From NCBI RefSeq assembly GCF_003851685.1, contig NZ_CP027727.1, positions 496,001 to 560,000 on the forward strand: a stretch of DNA of 64,000 nt, read 5' to 3'. Source of the stretch: Pseudomonas sp. R5-89-07 (GTDB taxonomy: Bacteria; Pseudomonadota; Gammaproteobacteria; Pseudomonadales; Pseudomonadaceae). Shown here piece by piece: positions 19,333 to 27,753 of this stretch. Position numbers and translations under genes: made by a program. The notes below the pieces were generated by a model, which worked only from the letters and a program-made list of their open reading frames with translations, searched no databases and was not told the origin of the DNA. Positions within the stretch are counted from its first letter, which is position 1. Every line of letters starts with the position of its first letter.

Positions 19333-21663
19333 TCATGAGGCGTGTTTCTGTTGCCTGGCCCAAGGCGCCAGGATAAAGCTGAAGGCCAGGCCGAGGCTGA
19401 CCGACAGGCCGAAATTGCTCACCGCCGGGGTACTGGAGACGGCCAGCAGGCCGAATGACAGCCAGGTTGTCAGCGCCGCCAGCAGCGTGCCCAGCAGGCT
19501 GACGGCGGCACCGCCGATCTGCTCACGCATCAGGATCGCATAATCGACGCTGATGGCCGTGACCAGCAGCAGGCCGAACAGGCTGAACAGGGTCAGGGGC
19601 TGGCCCAGCCAACCGAGGCTGGCCAGGCTGCACAACGCGGCCAGCAGCGGCAACGCGACAATACGCAAGGCGCCGGTGAAGCCGAAGGGCAGTATCAACA
19701 AGACCACGATCAGCACACAGGACAGCAACTTCAATTCGGCGGCGCTGATTTGGGTGTCGGCAAACACGCGGTTCAGGTCACCCAGGCGATCCACCAGTTG
19801 CACGCCGGGCAAGTCCAACGCCTGCACCCGCAGCAACGCCGGGTTGTTCAGGCCTTGCAGGCTGACCATCGCCGCCACGCCGCCGTCTACCGGGCCCAGC
19901 CACAGCGTGCGCCACGGCTCGGCCAGGGGGCCTTTGAGCGCGGCGTCGATGTCTTCGGTGGGCAGCGCCTGCAGTTGCGCGACTTCGGCTTGCAGCGCCT
20001 CGGCGGGAACGCCGAGGTCCAGCAGTGGTTGCCAGTGCTGCGCGAGTGTATTGAGCGCATCGCGCAGTTGCTGTTGCTCGGCGGGCAGGTTGACCAGTTG
20101 ATTCAACGCCAGGTATCCCTGCAGCTTGTCCATGTTCACCAGCTGATCCAGGCGCTGGCCCAGAGCGGCCTGGCGTTCCAGTAACTGCTGCTGATTATCG
20201 GCACGCACCAGGAAGAACTGACTGGTGGGCTGGAACCCGGTAATGCGCGCCACGGCCTGGGCTTGCTGCAGCAACTGCGGCGGCGCGCCGATCCATTGGC
20301 GAATATCGTTTTTACTGTTGAGCTGCCACAGGCCGCCGGCGCAGAACACCAGCACGCCCACCAGCAGCACCGCGCCTGGCACGCGCTTGATCAATGCCGC
20401 TCGCCACTGCCACAAGCGTTCGGCGATGCGCAGCGGCCATTGCGCCGGGCGCAGTTCGACACCGCTAAGCAGCGCCGGCAGCAGGCACACGGCTGAGAGA
20501 TACGCGCCGACCAGCCCGGCTGCGGAAAACACGGCGATCTGCGTCAGCGCCGGGAACGGCGTCCAAGCCAGCGCCAGATAGCCGATGCAACTGGTGGCCA
20601 GGCTCAGGCTCAGCCCCGGCAGGGTCAGGTGCAATGCCGGCCAACTGCGCCACGGTTGCAGGCTCCAGCTTTTCGACAGATAGTGCAGCGGGTAGTCCAC
20701 CGCCACGCCGATCAGGCTCGAGCCCAGCACCAGGGTCATCACATGCATATGGCCGAACAGCGCCACACAGGCCACTGCCCCAAACAGCATGCCGACGATG
20801 ACCGGCACGAACGCCAGCAGCACGCGCCAGCGCCGGAACGCCAGCAGCAGTAACAGCAGGATGCCCACGGTTGCGCCGCCGCCGACCCAGGTGATTTCTC
20901 GGGTGGCTTGCTGCTGTCCGCTGGCCGCATAGAGCAAGCCGCTGGCGGCGAGCAGTTGCACACCTTGCCTGTCGGCCTCGGCGCGGCTGGCCTGGAGCAA
21001 ATCCGCCACTTGCAGCGGCAGCTTCATGTCGAATGCATTGCCGGTGGTGCGCGCTCGCAGGAGCACCCAGCTTTTGCCGTCGGCATCGGCAATCAACGCG
21101 CCGCTGCCGATATCCAGCTGTACCGCACCATGTTGTGGCTGGCTGTTCTGGATGCGCCCGGTCAGGCCCAGCCAGTCGTCCTGGCTCGGCACCAGGCTGA
21201 AGCCGGTGAAGGGGTCGAACAGTGACTGCACACGCTGCTGAATGAAGGCGTCAGGCTGCTGGATCAACTGCTCGCGGTCCTTGGCCGAGAGCATCGCCAG
21301 CCGGCCGCGCAGCAGCTGCTCGCGCAGCGCCGGCAAGTCGGCTTGCAGGTTCCATTGCACCTTTTCAAACAGGCCGCTGGCTTGCCAGTGCTCGGCCAGT
21401 TGCTGCGCCACGGCCAGCGCTTGCTGGCGGTCGGCATGCCCCACCAGTACCAGCATTTCGCGGTTCAGCGGTTCCTGCATGCGCTGCTCGGCTTGCAGCT
21501 CCAGGGCGTCCGGCGTACTGCCGGGTACCAGCTCCATCAGGTTGGCCGACAGTGGCGCGCCCTGGCGCCACTGCCAGCCGGCCAGGGCCAGCACGGCCAC
21601 CAGCAGGATCAGGAACAGGCGCGGCAGCAGGCGTTCATTGGGCAAAGTCGTGTTGCTCCGCAT
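19333..21663 (-). CDS. RND/MMPL-family exporter of the APE cluster
   Basis: 776 residues. Two related halves, each with one N-proximal membrane helix, a large periplasmic domain and a block of five or so helices, as in MMPL and hopanoid-type RND transporters. The 'GVAVDYPLHYL' and 'ISVDYAILMREQ' segments occupy the proton-relay helix positions of the two halves. Likely extracts the lipid-linked aryl polyene from the inner membrane for transfer to the LolA-like carrier encoded just upstream, which it overlaps by 29 bases. Corresponds in order to ApeM. Confidence 0.83.
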   Translation of the reverse strand: MRSNTTLPNERLLPRLFLILLVAVLALAGWQWRQGAPLSANLMELVPGSTPDALELQAEQRMQEPLNREMLVLVGHADRQQALAVAQQLAEHWQASGLFEKVQWNLQADLPALREQLLRGRLAMLSAKDREQLIQQPDAFIQQRVQSLFDPFTGFSLVPSQDDWLGLTGRIQNSQPQHGAVQLDIGSGALIADADGKSWVLLRARTTGNAFDMKLPLQVADLLQASRAEADRQGVQLLAASGLLYAASGQQQATREITWVGGGATVGILLLLLLAFRRWRVLLAFVPVIVGMLFGAVACVALFGHMHVMTLVLGSSLIGVAVDYPLHYLSKSWSLQPWRSWPALHLTLPGLSLSLATSCIGYLALAWTPFPALTQIAVFSAAGLVGAYLSAVCLLPALLSGVELRPAQWPLRIAERLWQWRAALIKRVPGAVLLVGVLVFCAGGLWQLNSKNDIRQWIGAPPQLLQQAQAVARITGFQPTSQFFLVRADNQQQLLERQAALGQRLDQLVNMDKLQGYLALNQLVNLPAEQQQLRDALNTLAQHWQPLLDLGVPAEALQAEVAQLQALPTEDIDAALKGPLAEPWRTLWLGPVDGGVAAMVSLQGLNNPALLRVQALDLPGVQLVDRLGDLNRVFADTQISAAELKLLSCVLIVVLLILPFGFTGALRIVALPLLAALCSLASLGWLGQPLTLFSLFGLLLVTAISVDYAILMREQIGGAAVSLLGTLLAALTTWLSFGLLAVSSTPAVSNFGLSVSLGLAFSFILAPWARQQKHAS

Positions 21664-22318
21664 CGCTCAGTGGCTGGTCGGCGCTGCTGTCCTGCATGCG
21701 CAACACCGTGCTGTCGCCCTGGGTTTCCAGCAACTCGATGGTGTTCACCAGTGCGCCGCCGTCGATATTGATCCGCGTGAAGACTTGCTTGAGCAACAGC
21801 GAACGCGGGATCAGCGTGAGCTTCCACTGTCGAGCCTCGCCTTGCAGTTGCAGCTCGAAGTCGCGTTGCAAGCCGCTGCTGTCGCCCCCCAGCACGGCGA
21901 GGAACAAACGATTCTGCTCGGTGCCGGCGCTCTTGGTGGGCAGCAATTGCCAGCCGTTGGCGTCACGCCGAGCGATGCCCTGGGCGCTGATGCGGTAGTC
22001 CTGCTGCAGCGGGGTTTTGAGCAGCCACAGCAAACCGTGGTCCTTGGCGAGCACGAAGCTGCCTTTGCTGACCAGCGGCTGGGGCAGGGCACGCAGGTGT
22101 TTTTCCTGGGTGAAGTGGCCGTGGATCACGCTGGGTTTGGCCAGTTGATCGCTCAGTTGCTGCAAGTCAAAAGCATGGGCGCTGAAGCTCAGCAATGCGG
22201 CGGCCACTGTAGGAGCGAGCTTGCTCGCGAAGAACCTCAGAGCACTGCGCAGTGTCAGGCGGATCGCGTTATCGTTGACGTCCATCGGGGGCAAGCCCCC
22301 TCCCACATGGGATCTCAT
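21635..22318 (-). CDS. LolA-like periplasmic carrier with REP-derived N-terminus
   Basis: 227 residues from the ATG that overlaps the thioesterase stop (ATGA), as for nearly all genes in this operon. The mature domain (from about FDLQQLSDQL, residue 50) is LolA-like, with HGHFTQEKHL and a GSFVLAKDHGLLWLL strand, and should ferry lipidated pigment across the periplasm. The first ~38 residues are unusual: MRSHVGGGLPP is read from a class A REP and FFASKLAPT from a class B REP (22208-22308). The signal peptide core is VAAALLSFSAHA. Alternative start ATG 22285 has GGAGGGGG ten bases upstream, but inside the REP hairpin. Confidence 0.78.
   Translation of the reverse strand: MRSHVGGGLPPMDVNDNAIRLTLRSALRFFASKLAPTVAAALLSFSAHAFDLQQLSDQLAKPSVIHGHFTQEKHLRALPQPLVSKGSFVLAKDHGLLWLLKTPLQQDYRISAQGIARRDANGWQLLPTKSAGTEQNRLFLAVLGGDSSGLQRDFELQLQGEARQWKLTLIPRSLLLKQVFTRINIDGGALVNTIELLETQGDSTVLRMQDSSADQPLSDAEQHDFAQ
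22208..22308. repeat. Hybrid REPIN (class B left arm, class A right arm) inside the LolA-like gene
   Basis: The left arm is TGTAGGAGCGAGCTTGCTCG, class B. The right arm is CATCGGGGGCAAGCCCCCTC followed by CCACAT, class A. Normal REPINs have arms of one class. The spacer end GCGTTATCGTTGACG is the reverse complement of the spacer start of the class B REPIN at 58492. Confidence 0.85.
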
Positions 22319-22740
22319 TTCAGGGCCCTTTCTACGGCATCGGTGAATACTTTGGGGGAGGCCAATTGCATCTCGCGGCTGGCGATCTCTACCGCCACTT
22401 GCACGGTGCTGGCGCGGGTCAAGCGTTCGCCGCTGGCCAGGTCGGTGATCAGGTAGTTGACCTTCAAACGGTTCTCCCATTCCACCAGGCTGGCGCGTAC
22501 GTTGATCGTTTGGCCGAAGGTGGCGCCGCGCACATAGCGCAACTGCAGGTCGATCACCGGCCAGGCGTAGCCGGCTTCGAGCATCGCGGTGTAGTTGTGG
22601 CCGATCTTGTCCAGCAGCGCGCAGCGCGCCACCTCCAGGTACTTTACGTAATGCCCGTGCCACACCACGTTCATGGTGTCGACATCGAAAAACGGCACGA
22701 GGATTTCAGTGTCGCTGTGCAATACACCGGGGCTACGCAT
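22315..22740 (-). CDS. apeK: 4HBT-family acyl thioesterase (ApeK-like)
   Basis: 141 residues. The hot-dog signature FDVDTMNVVWHGHYVKYLE includes the catalytic Asp of the 4-hydroxybenzoyl-CoA thioesterase type. In APE pathways ApeK is thought to release or edit acyl-ACP intermediates. Start ATG at 22740 overlaps the lyase stop by eight bases; longer frames upstream are shadows of the lyase. It is followed by the LolA-like gene with a stop/start overlap. Confidence 0.85.
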   Translation of the reverse strand: MRSPGVLHSDTEILVPFFDVDTMNVVWHGHYVKYLEVARCALLDKIGHNYTAMLEAGYAWPVIDLQLRYVRGATFGQTINVRASLVEWENRLKVNYLITDLASGERLTRASTVQVAVEIASREMQLASPKVFTDAVERALK

Positions 22741-24274
22741 GCAGCCTCCAGTGTTGCTCGGCAATGCGTTGCAGGCACAGGCGCAGTTCGCCTTCCAGGG
22801 CGCGGTCTTCAATGACGGGCGCAAAGTCCTTGGCCAGCTCTTCATGCATCGCCGCCAGTGCCGGCGGCAACGGCCGAGCGTCCTCGGCCTGGGCCCGCAA
22901 CCACACGCCCTGGTGGGCGGCGAGCAAGGTGGCGGCGGCGACCTGTTCGGTCAGCTCCAGCACGCGTACAGCGTCGCGGGCGGCGATGGTGCCCATGCTC
23001 ACTTTGTCCTGGTTATGGCATTCGGTGGAGCGCGAAAACACGCTGGCCGGCATGGTGTTTTTCAGCGCTTCGGCGGTCCAGGCGCTGGTGCCGATCTGCA
23101 CGGCCTTGAAGCCATGGTTGATCATGGCGCGGTCGGCCGGCGCGCCCGACAGGTTGCTCGGCAGGCCGTGGTTGTAACGCACGTCCACCAGCAGCGCCAG
23201 TTGGCGGTCGAGCAGGTCGGCGACGTTGGCCACCAGGGTCTTGAGGCTGTCCATGGCAAAGGCGATGTGCCCACCGTAGAAGTGCCCACCGTGCAGCACG
23301 CGTTCGGCTTCGGCGTCGATGATCGGGTTGTCGTTGGCACTGTTGAGCTCGATTTCGATAAACGAGCGCAGCCAGTTCAGGCTGTCGGCCAGCACGCCGA
23401 GCACGTGGGGCGCGCAGCGCAGTGAGTAGCGGTCCTGCAGGCGGTGCAGCGGGGCAGTCGGTGCATCGATGGCCAGGTCTTCGCGCAACCAGGCGGCGAC
23501 TTGCATCTGCCCTGGGTGGGGCTTGGCGGCGAACAGGCGTTCGTCGAAGTGCTCCGGGTTGCCTTGCAGCGCCACCACATTCAGCGCAGTGATGCGCGTG
23601 GCCAGGTGCAGCAGGTAGTCGGCGCGGGCGAAGGCCAGGCACGCGATGCCGGTCATCACCGCCGTGCCGTTCATCAACGCCAGGGCTTCCTTGGGCCGCA
23701 GTACCAATGGCTGCCAGCCCAGTTCGCGATGAACATCGGCGGCTTGGCGGCGCTCGCCACGGAACAGTACTTCACGCTCGCCGGACAAGGTTGCCGCCAC
23801 ATACGACAGCGGCGTCAGATCGCCGCTGGCGCCTACCGAGCCTTCTTCAGGGATCAGCGGCAGCACGTCGTGTTCGAGGAAGCCCTGCAGGCGCTCCAGC
23901 AGTTCCACGCGCACCCCGGACACGCCGTGGCACAGCGACTGCAAGCGCGCCGCCAGCACGGCGCGGGTGGCCTGGGCGTCGAGCAACTTGCCCAGGCCGC
24001 AGCCGTGGAAGGTGTACAGATGACGCGGCAGTGCTTCGACATGCTGCAAGGGCACCGCGACCACGCATGAGTCGCCGTAGCCGGTGGTCACGCCGTAGAT
24101 CACGCCTTCCTTGTCCAGCAGCGAGTCAAGGAACTGCGCGCCCTTGGCGATGCGCTGGCGATACGCGGCATCGTCCTGCAAGCGGGTGGGCACCTGACGG
24201 TTGGCCAGAGCCAGTACGTCTTCGATGCGCAGGGGGCGTTCGCCAAAGGTGATCGGCTCAAGAGGCGTGGTCAT
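22733..24274 (-). CDS. MIO-dependent aromatic amino acid ammonia lyase (HAL/TAL family)
   Basis: 513 residues. The Ala149-Ser150-Gly151 triad in GSVGASGDLTPLSY forms the MIO electrophile, and Y60 in VIYGVTTGYG is the catalytic tyrosine. Family members eliminate ammonia from His, Phe or Tyr. Within an APE operon it most likely makes a cinnamate-type starter (for example 4-coumarate from tyrosine). The doublet aligned with the substrate-selectivity site looks like Phe89-His90, not Ser-His of HAL or His-Leu of known TAL, so the substrate is uncertain. It overlaps the acyltransferase gene by 17 bases. Confidence 0.88.
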   Translation of the reverse strand: MTTPLEPITFGERPLRIEDVLALANRQVPTRLQDDAAYRQRIAKGAQFLDSLLDKEGVIYGVTTGYGDSCVVAVPLQHVEALPRHLYTFHGCGLGKLLDAQATRAVLAARLQSLCHGVSGVRVELLERLQGFLEHDVLPLIPEEGSVGASGDLTPLSYVAATLSGEREVLFRGERRQAADVHRELGWQPLVLRPKEALALMNGTAVMTGIACLAFARADYLLHLATRITALNVVALQGNPEHFDERLFAAKPHPGQMQVAAWLREDLAIDAPTAPLHRLQDRYSLRCAPHVLGVLADSLNWLRSFIEIELNSANDNPIIDAEAERVLHGGHFYGGHIAFAMDSLKTLVANVADLLDRQLALLVDVRYNHGLPSNLSGAPADRAMINHGFKAVQIGTSAWTAEALKNTMPASVFSRSTECHNQDKVSMGTIAARDAVRVLELTEQVAAATLLAAHQGVWLRAQAEDARPLPPALAAMHEELAKDFAPVIEDRALEGELRLCLQRIAEQHWRLHA

Positions 24275-25193
24275 CGGTCTTCCAGAAAGGGTAAAAGTTG
24301 AACCATTGTTGAGGCGCTTGCAGGCAGAACTGGCCCAGGCGCGCGGCGTAGCGGGCGGTCCACAGGGCAATGACTTGCTCGCGGGTGCTGCGCTTCCATT
24401 CGATCAATTGCGCGAAGGGCTCGATGGTCAGGTGATAGCGGCCCTGGTGCTTGAGGCACATCAGCAGGTTGACCGGGCATTTGAGCAAGCCGGCCAGCAG
24501 CCATGGGCCTTGGGGAAACGCGGCCTCGTGCCCGAGGAAATCGACGCGCACCGTGCGCCCGCCGTGCAGCGGGATGCGGTCGCCGGCAATCGCCAGCCAT
24601 TCGCCGTCGTCCAGGCGCTGGCTGAGCAGCAGCATGGTGGCCGGGTCCAGCTCGCTGACCTGGATCAGGCGCAGGTGGGTCGCCCCCGCTTCGCCCAGCA
24701 GGCGATTGAAACGCTCGGCATGCTTGGTGTGCACCAGCACGTTCATGGTGACTTGTTCGCCGATCTCCGCCAGTGCGCGGCACACTTCCAGGTTGCCCAG
24801 GTGTGCGCCCACCAGCATCTGCCCGCGCTCGCCACGCAGTTGGCCGCGCAGTTGCGCCGGGTCGTTGATGTCGATCTGCTCCAGGCGCAGCTTGCCGTTC
24901 CACACGTCCAGCTTGTCGAGCATTGAGTCGGCGAACGCCATGAACTGGCCAAAGACTTTTCTGTGGGTTGGCAGCAAATCGTCGCGCGCGCTCCACTGCG
25001 CCAGGCGCTGCTGGTACTGCCAGGCACTCTGGCGCGCGGTGCGGCCAAACAGGAAAAAGTACAACACGATGCTGTACAGCAGCGGGCTCAACAGGCGGCG
25101 GCCAAGCACCTTTGCCGCGACTGCCGTGAGCTTCATCAGCCAGAAACTGCCGCGTTCCTCGCGGTCGGCCCAGTGTTTGCCGCTGTCGCTCAT
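24258..25193 (-). CDS. LpxL/HtrB-like lysophospholipid or lipid A-type acyltransferase
   Basis: 311 residues with an N-terminal membrane anchor (about 33-50). The motif VGAHLGNLEVCRAL corresponds to the HX4(D/E)-like catalytic region of LpxL enzymes, and the RIPLHGGRTVRVDFLG block to the second conserved motif. In E. coli APE clusters a related acyltransferase is fused to a glycosyltransferase (ApeJ); here the two are separate neighbours. It probably acylates the sugar or lipid anchor of the pigment. Start ATG overlaps the glycosyltransferase stop. Confidence 0.82.
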   Translation of the reverse strand: MSDSGKHWADREERGSFWLMKLTAVAAKVLGRRLLSPLLYSIVLYFFLFGRTARQSAWQYQQRLAQWSARDDLLPTHRKVFGQFMAFADSMLDKLDVWNGKLRLEQIDINDPAQLRGQLRGERGQMLVGAHLGNLEVCRALAEIGEQVTMNVLVHTKHAERFNRLLGEAGATHLRLIQVSELDPATMLLLSQRLDDGEWLAIAGDRIPLHGGRTVRVDFLGHEAAFPQGPWLLAGLLKCPVNLLMCLKHQGRYHLTIEPFAQLIEWKRSTREQVIALWTARYAARLGQFCLQAPQQWFNFYPFWKTDDHAS

Positions 25194-25927: not shown

Positions 25928-25946
25928 GAGAGTCTCGGCAAACCTG

Positions 25947-26077
25947 GTGGCGAGGGAGCTTGCTCCCGCCGGGCTGCGAAGCAGACCCAATGCAGGCGAC
26001 CGGGATGGCTCTGGAAAATTGCACTGCATGGGTTGGGAGTGCTGCGCACTCCAGCGGGAGCAAGCTCCCTCGCCACA
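25947..26077. repeat. REPIN, class C, inside the APE operon
   Basis: The arms are GGTGGCGAGGGAGCTTGCTC (left) and its inverse ending GAGCAAGCTCCCTCGCCACA (right), about 131 bases overall. It is the only class C element in the window and occupies the 155-base gap between the ligase-dehydratase and glycosyltransferase genes. Confidence 0.88.
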
Positions 26078-26082
26078 AAAGC

Positions 26083-27753
26083 CTATTCATAGGGTGTCTC
26101 CAGCAGGATTCGGCCGCTGGAGCAGGCGGCGACGCCATTGCGGTAGGCGAAATACAATTTGCCGCGCTCCTGATCGAAGCGCAGGTGCAGTTCGATACGG
26201 TCGCCGGGGCGCACCAGTTGCTGGAACTTGAGCACTTCCATACCGGCGAACGTCGGCGGTAGGTCCAGCAGTTGCTGGCCCAGGTCGAACGCCCATTCCA
26301 CCTGCACCACACCTGGCAGCACCGGCGTTACCGGGAAATGCCCGCTGAAATAGGCCAGGTCCGGCGGAACGCTCAGTTGCAACGTCCATTCGCCGTCGGT
26401 TTCGACCTGCTCCAGTACCTCCGGCGCCTTGGGGCGCGGCGCCAGCAGCAGGGCCTCGATATCGGCCTGGGGCAGCTTGCCCTGGCTGTTGAGCGGCAGT
26501 TGGCGCAGCAAGCGCCAGCGGCGGGGCAGGGCCAGGGCTTCGCAATGCTGGCTCAGGTGCTCGCGCAGGGTTTGGGTCAGCGTGCGCCGGCCCTGATTGC
26601 GCAGCGCATGCAGCCCCGCGGCGCTCAGCACCACCAGGGCACCGAGCGAGGCGCGGTTTTCCTGCACCACGCCCAGGCGCGTTTCGGCGACCCAGGGATG
26701 GGTGATCAACGCCTGTTCGAGCATCGGCAGGGAGATGCGTTTTTCTTCCAGCTTGACGATGCGATCCAGGCGGCCGAGCAGTTCGAAGCGGCCATCGGCA
26801 TGGATGCGCGCGGCGTCGGCGGTCTGTTCGATATGCCCGGTGGGCAGGTACGGCGAGGCAATGCGCAGGGCGCCGTCGGCATCCTGGCTCAGTTGCACAT
26901 CGGCAAACGGCTGCCAGGGTTGGGCCCCCTGGCGCCAGGCGATACCGCCGGTTTCCGAGCTGCCGAGGATTTCCGTCGGCCATTGCTGCAAGCGGTCGTA
27001 GAGGCTGCCGGCGGCCTCGACAGGCAAGGCGCCACCGGAGGAAAACACTCGGCACACCTGGCTCAGTGCCGGCCAGTCGAGGTTATCGCCCATGCGCTTG
27101 AGCAGCGCCGGGCTGGCGACCCAGGCAAATTGCGGATGCTCGCGACTGGCGCGCTGCATGTCTTCGGGGAAGGCCAGTTGCCTGCGCACAAAGGTGCGAC
27201 CGGCGCACAGCGGCCACAGCACGCGGAACAGCAAGCCGTAGATATGTTGGGTAGCGACGCTGCCGATGATGCAGGCCTCTTTCAGATCGGCGCCCCACAG
27301 CGCTTCCAGCGCCTGCACTTCATTGGCCAGCTGACGCAGGGACTTGTCGATACGCTTGGGTTCGCCGCTGGAGCCGGAGGTGCACAGGCTCAGTTGGCAG
27401 GTATCCAGGTCAAGTGCGGCGGGGGTGAGAGGCGTCTGGTACAGCGCCTCCAGTTCCGATGCTTGCGTCAGCCAGGCATCGACGGCGTCGGCCCAGCGTT
27501 GACGGGTCTGGGGTTGCAGGTCGGCGGGCAATAGCACGCTGACCCCGGCACGCCAGGCGCCGAGCAAGGCAATCGCCAGCACGCCCGCGTCTTCCAGGTG
27601 CACCGCCAGGCGCTGTATGCCACGCGCTCGCAGGCCTGCCGCCAGGCGCAGCGATTGCTCCACCAGTTGTGCATGATCCAGTGCCGGCTCAGTGGTGACC
27701 TGGCGTTGTTCCTGCGGCTCGAGCAGTAGATGCTCAAGTTTCAAACCTTTCAT
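26083..27753 (-). CDS. Acyl-activating enzyme fused to ApeI-like dehydratase domain (ApeH-ApeI)
   Basis: 556 residues. Residues 1 to about 450 are an AMP-binding acyl-CoA/ACP ligase: P-loop [13 protein letters not shown], adenine motif ILGSSETGG and LPTGHI further on. From about 455 to the end is a FabA/FabZ-like hot-dog domain, with [20 protein letters not shown] carrying the catalytic His. In E. coli and Xenorhabdus, as I recall, ApeH and ApeI are separate. The ligase should load the aromatic starter onto ACP, and the dehydratase should pair with ApeP. Start ATG overlaps the membrane protein stop. Confidence 0.87.

Follow-up and report, generated by a model that had tools for sequence, protein, structure and literature searches.

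Palindromic repeats within and between genes

REPINs, as described in Pseudomonas fluorescens, are extragenic elements, and the available part of that description counts only 14 abundant 16-mers that overlap genes in SBW25 (PMC3116915). The element considered here resembles them in its two inverted REPs and spacer, its high copy number and the presence of candidate RAYT-type transposase matches in the genome, but it differs in lying inside a gene, which encodes a LolA-like protein, and in apparently being read (PMC3116915, as far as its available part goes). Intragenic REPs of the GTAG/CGTC type have been catalogued, and in the accessible sections of that catalogue many of the N-terminal ones were judged to be possibly non-coding (PMC3733652). 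The two cases are alike in that REP dimers lie in open reading frames and code for 20–30 residues, N-terminal cases being noted; unlike in those sections of the catalogue, the lack of a downstream start and the in-frame retention across species argue for translation here, and several families share one site. The Rickettsia palindromic elements, inserted in frame in many genes, are similar as small palindromic mobile elements in host reading frames (PMC10969869, in its available part). They are found in many unrelated genes of one genus (PMC10969869, same part), whereas several REPIN families are found here in the signal peptide of one gene, with comparative evidence for their translation. A search of titles and abstract openings, which left subscription journals mostly uncovered, found no report of REPINs serving as a signal peptide. 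Intragenic REPs are thus already known, and the recurrent version in an export signal is new.

The LolA-like gene and its REPIN

The window, the whole stretch of 64,000 nucleotides analysed, belongs to the genome of Pseudomonas sp. R5-89-07 (6.0 Mb, single contig). The LolA-like gene (21635..22318, minus strand) encodes 227 residues and exceeds the curated Pfam cut-offs for LolA_3 (29.1 bits, cut-off 23) and LolA (29.3, cut-off 23.6), while a profile search placed the protein below the equivalog cut-offs of NCBIfam lolA and LolA2_flexi. The protein is probably periplasmic. Its gene forms part of a minus-strand operon comprising an aromatic amino acid lyase (22733..24370), a 4HBT thioesterase-like gene (22315..22740), the LolA-like gene and, downstream, an MMPL-family exporter (19333..21663); the lyase and exporter are given as listed open reading frames with provisional starts. 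We take this operon to be of the aryl polyene type. The TGA stop of the thioesterase (22317-22315) overlaps the ATG at 22318 (codon 22316..22318, supported by allele comparison) in an ATGA; with this start the LolA-like gene begins inside the thioesterase stop, and the junction offers a REPIN no room between the genes. The same operon contains a second REPIN (window 25932-26083, minus strand), between a synthetase-like gene and a glycosyltransferase; by eye it looks like family X, which in other species occurs within the LolA-like gene, and the gene that follows this second REPIN starts from a codon of its own.

A REPIN of 100 nt (22208..22307, minus strand), recognised from its sequence and genomic copies, separates the overlap start codon from the hydrophobic core of the signal peptide. 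On the minus strand the order is ...CTGAAATGAGATCCCA + TGTGGGAGGGGGCTTGCCCCCGATG ... TTCGCGAGCAAGCTCGCTCCTACA + GTGGCCGCC..., and the frame runs unbroken from ATG 22318 through the REPIN, which codes for VGGGLPPMDVNDNAIRLTLRSALRFFASKLAPT, so that the region reads in frame as MRSHVGGGLPPMDVNDNAIRLTLRSALRFFASKLAPT followed by VAAALLSFSAHA-FDLQQL. The left REP (22283..22307), assigned to class TGTGGGAGGGGGCTTGCCCCCGAT from 23-mer counts, carries a Shine-Dalgarno-like GGAGGGGG at 22296-22303 and two candidate alternative starts, a TTG (22292..22294) and an ATG (22283..22285). The right REP (TTCGCGAGCAAGCTCGCTCCTACA, 22208..22231), identified by comparison of copies, is read as FASKLAPT and supplies the last lysine before the hydrophobic core. 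The rest of the signal peptide, VAAALLSFSAHA (22172..22207), derives from the host, comprises the h- and c-regions and is devoid of Lys, Arg and Met. By inspection and hydropathy, the sequence has the features of a putative Sec signal peptide: a charged n-region, a hydrophobic core and small residues at -3 and -1. The architecture is that of a REPIN, two inverted REPs with a short spacer, and the location is not extragenic; the element is still named a REPIN by sequence, extragenic location being a description of the population and not of every copy.

The REPIN population of the genome

At least 77 REPIN matches were found in the source genome at E<=0.001, self and both-strand matches included, among them 39 other near-full-length copies; at the peptide level there are at least 82, again with both strands included. 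The 23-mer of the left REP, with at most one mismatch, occurs 443 times on the forward and 437 times on the reverse strand, against 0 and 0 for its reversed control, and chance similarity is ruled out by these counts and the copy matches. The right REP is the one that the other 100-nt copies carry (33 compared, mean identity 1.00). Given the abundance of the left REP class and this match of the right REP, the two REPs are of different classes, and the earlier note, which had read two such REPs in frame at the start of the gene, is confirmed by the sequence, the copy counts and the right REP identity. The genome also has five Y1_Tnp matches (RAYT-type candidates), all over the cut-off and one with an internal stop.

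The 39 other own-genome copies, picked by similarity, provided an extragenic comparison, 38 of them being measurable. Stops are absent from the frame of the LolA-like gene in 35 of these 38, and 34 are exactly 100 nt long, the other four being 99 or 101 nt. An open frame tends to be generic for this REPIN family, which reads as VGASLLAKNVNDNA...FFASKLAPT wherever a copy lies; the absence of stops is therefore partly free, and an open frame in one genome is no evidence alone, this role falling to comparative data. The extragenic own-genome copies (L002-L008, L204-L235) have a near-constant open frame, with a VNDNA plus FFASKLAPT consensus and a variable spacer, a regularity that may simply follow from GC-rich palindromes. 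Seven own-genome loci with open frames around other REPINs were inspected by eye: one (L005) is an ordinary upstream REPIN, in phase before an apparent ABC substrate-binding protein that has a normal signal peptide and a Met of its own to start it, and the rest look spurious or antisense.

Distribution and reading frame among congeners

Congeneric alleles were drawn from the best-scoring ~150 places (398 genomes searched, 350 with a match) and from the best 80 of 227 named loci; ~200 lower-ranked genomes lie outside this sample, and the ranking is biased towards alleles whose N-terminus resembles that of the window allele. A set of 190 loci yielded 149 distinct alleles, and 40 more brought the number to 189, all distinct. 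One locus whose fetched stretch ends inside the repeat array (L040) was excluded and its longer copy (L153) kept.

An insert is present at the start of the LolA-like gene in 131 of the 189 alleles, and every one of the 131 is in frame without an internal stop. The other 58 alleles have no insert and carry short signal peptides (18–29 residues, e.g. MKLITFLGALLLSLQAQA-FDLQQL), 57 of them starting at the same overlap, in one case with GTG. This is the alignment with REP-lacking relatives that the earlier note had recommended, and it bears out the proposal that a REPIN inserted into the start of the gene: the element is open in frame across many species, and REPIN-free congeners start at the same overlap. 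Read-through of the insertion is, by the same comparison of sequences, very likely. No allele among the congeners examined has the same N-terminus without REP similarity.

The start codon lies at the thioesterase overlap in 129 of the 131 insert alleles, and 4 nt (L084) or 16 nt (L032) after the stop in the other two; across all 189 alleles, the offset of the overlap start is the same in 166, 3 nt upstream in 20 and further downstream in three. All 110 canonical alleles have an in-frame ATG at the thioesterase stop, overlapping it in 108 and within 16 nt after it in two. Spans could be measured in 100 of these 110 and are 85 (n=2), 97 (1), 100 (78), 115 (15), 130 (1), 223, 505 and 592 nt (1 each), every one of them 1 mod 3. 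Frame-broken copies number 5 of 38 among the extragenic REPINs versus 0 of 110 among canonical alleles (Fisher p = 0.0009, relatedness ignored). The prefix between the start ATG and the REP varies, being 3, 4, 5, 6 or 8 codons in 94 of the 95 scored alleles, still in frame, and 39 codons in one tandem-array allele.

Other REPIN families, tandem arrays and losses

The inserts come from four REPIN families with only short REP cores in common: representatives of A, X, Y and Z share, pairwise, only ~8–37 nt cores. Non-canonical families lie at the same place and in frame in five (X), eight (Y), six (Z) and one (W) alleles, and all 10 members tested are multi-copy in their own genomes. Tandem units, counted by eye and all in frame, occur at the LolA-like start in P. 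brenneri (L038, four) and P. proteolytica (L153, five). The unit spacers differ in these two arrays, and that of L038 resembles the end of the thioesterase gene followed by a start codon. In L082 the REPIN has been lost, leaving the in-frame scar MRSNVGA-FVLMLSVSG. The deletion scars of L082 and L239 keep just the NVGA of the left REP, with the frame intact.

A quick tree of 113 rows was built without the insert, and 36 of its 110 inner branches are weakly supported. On this tree, all seven allele states require at least 18 changes, and the left REP class, which could be assigned in 65 of 86 canonical rows but not in the other 21, requires at least 20; the tree sister of the window allele (L126) has another left REP class and the same right REP. 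A single old insertion with simple inheritance is not upheld, as insert versus none requires at least 11 changes and REPIN-free alleles are nested among bearers. In view of the weak branches and possible recombination of alleles, these counts imply no order of gains and losses. These patterns suggest repeated exchange with the REPIN pool of the genome, together with gains and losses, although inter-strain recombination could mimic part of them.

Which start codon is used?

The host part that follows the REPIN has 12–16 residues and is free of Lys and Arg in 104, and of Met in 98, of the 109 comparable tails; a start codon placed to give a signal peptide of 16–26 residues is missing from 112 of the 131 inserts and present in 19 (e.g. 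ATG in L275, GTG in L104). Since the host remainder is short and uncharged, with no usable start in most alleles, at least the right REP must be read if export uses this signal, and it is very probable that this REP, at least, is translated as the charged n-region of the signal peptide. GTG or TTG codons within the hydrophobic core may, from their sequence, also serve as starts.

How much of the left REP would be read depends on the start. The start may have moved into the left REP, with the GGAG-rich arm as Shine-Dalgarno sequence and TTG 22294 or ATG 22285 as initiation codon, which would leave the REPIN partly coding; we regard this as possible, if rather doubtful. In the window, predicted Shine-Dalgarno pairing is -4.4 kcal/mol for ATG 22318, -10.7 for TTG 22294 and -11.2 for ATG 22285, and the means point the same way (REP TTG -6.6, REP ATG -6.4, overlap ATG -4.9). 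The suggestion that the REP provides a Shine-Dalgarno sequence for ATG 22285 thus has the stronger match of the window allele in its favour, but an ATG is found there in only 47 of 110 canonical alleles (63 are without it), the TTG in 82 and neither codon in 21, whereas all of them have an in-frame ATG at the thioesterase stop. The overlap ATG also stays in the REP frame despite the variable spacing, and this constant phase favours it in general. Six family Y alleles (L113, L116, L118, L284, L289, L294) and one of family Z (L103) have no further start codon after the overlap ATG until the host tail is reached; in L103 and L118 the overlap ATG is the sole ATG, GTG or TTG that leaves at least 15 residues.

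The overlap start implies 33–43 residues before the hydrophobic core in most canonical alleles. An n-region of this length is unusually long. In the four- and five-unit arrays the first ATG would place the core ~170–200 residues in, which makes an internal start in the last unit likelier there, and a left-REP start would give these arrays a normal-sized leader. Database proteins, whose starts are inferred from their length, split mainly into 227, 219 and 216 residues: many are of the shorter lengths expected from a start in the left REP, and many are full-length at 227, P0007 beginning with REPIN-coded residues. Two protein searches with the N-terminal region, both of which see similar-length proteins only, returned LolA-domain proteins in 65 of 65 and 46 of 51 matches, the rest being P0066, P0067, P0070 and P0098, with no domain, and P0115, with an OprD domain. 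P0115, a Pseudomonas marginalis protein (PF03573), has a REPIN in frame near its C-terminal end, and P0066 is a predicted 321-residue protein of REPIN repeats, probably a spurious reading frame over a REPIN array.

Selection on the REPIN-coded part

Pooled over 25–43 independent close pairs, pN/pS is 0.65–0.71 in the REPIN part, 0.16–0.21 over the final 12 signal-peptide residues and 0.06–0.07 over the first 60 mature codons. Pairs beyond distance limits were dropped; because the tightest of these limits (REPIN distance 0.12) makes divergence come out too low, looser ones were also run. For extragenic copies translated in the frame of the LolA-like gene, pN/pS is 0.79 (16 pairs from 33 paralogous copies of one genome). 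Purifying selection on the REPIN-coded peptide gives a weak signal only, with pN/pS near this extragenic control. The peptide is, by this pattern, hardly constrained beyond its frame, as would be expected of an in-frame passenger that the gene tolerates. The earlier note had also called the REPIN-derived N-terminus domesticated, which is too strong a word given this weak amino-acid constraint and the number of left REP class changes, the class varying even between near relatives.

The REPIN part shows less synonymous divergence (pS 0.07–0.14) than the mature part (0.19–0.24). This comparison is biased by the pair limits, and the difference could reflect that bias, constraint on the nucleotides or the replacement of REPINs from the pool. 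Nucleotide constraint would be expected if the insertion acted at the RNA level, for example as a hairpin tuning translational coupling and the thioesterase to LolA-like ratio. The left REP stems remain paired across classes, 73 of the 84 alleles scored (of 110) keeping 6/6 pairs, one REP is paired with the other when the mRNA fold is predicted, and insertions have recurred at one junction. The predicted fold is, however, no more stable than shuffled sequences (z = -1.03), replacement of REPs from the genomic pool would also produce conserved stems and low divergence, and 58 of 189 alleles manage without an insert, so that an RNA-level role appears unlikely.

That the REPIN is a mis-annotated extragenic 5' leader, with translation beginning after it, corresponds to the way in which most REPs at the 5' ends of reading frames have been explained for P. 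putida and two further species (PMC3733652, in the part available) and would agree with the generic openness of the family, the ordinary upstream REPIN at L005 and the 19 inserts with a suitable start, but it is very improbable here, as it does not fit the 112 inserts devoid of such a start, the window allele has just GTG 22207 after the right arm of the REPIN, leaving 12 uncharged residues, and the spans and the ATG-to-REP phase are kept.

Insertion into a presumably tolerant n-region

The reading that we prefer, and hold to be probable from the comparison of alleles, is that REPINs landing in the start of the LolA-like signal peptide are translated as its n-region and kept as passengers. REPINs arriving at the thioesterase/LolA-like junction would have fallen into the first codons of the signal peptide, where almost any sequence may be tolerated as n-region provided that it is in frame, carries some positive charge and is followed by the hydrophobic core. 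Once inserted, the REPIN would be translated: its basic residues (R20, R24, R28 and K33) would take the place of the short n-region of the host, and LAPT, with which its right REP ends, would join the host hydrophobic core. Selection would remove frameshifts and stops, the insertion otherwise persisting as a presumably neutral passenger, and recombination with other genomic REPINs, possibly by gene conversion, would swap the REP class and sometimes yield tandem copies.

A broader proposal, to which we give an even chance, is that the LolA-like start is a recurrent landing site, at which unrelated REPIN families each became the n-region and, as coding sequence that still belonged to the genomic REPIN population, were rewritten by REPIN exchange (class changes, tandem units and in-frame loss) with export preserved.

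Significance

This locus is a comparative case in which explanation by annotation error fails for most alleles, and it suggests how the n-region of a signal peptide can absorb mobile DNA repeatedly. It provides a natural allele series (none, one and up to five units; four families) for testing how far an export signal can be extended at its N-terminus, and the series is also suited to testing the effects of REP hairpins on coupled translation and the exchange of REPINs by gene conversion. If the reading of a recurrent landing site is true, a live mobile element would be evolving here as a piece of a protein.
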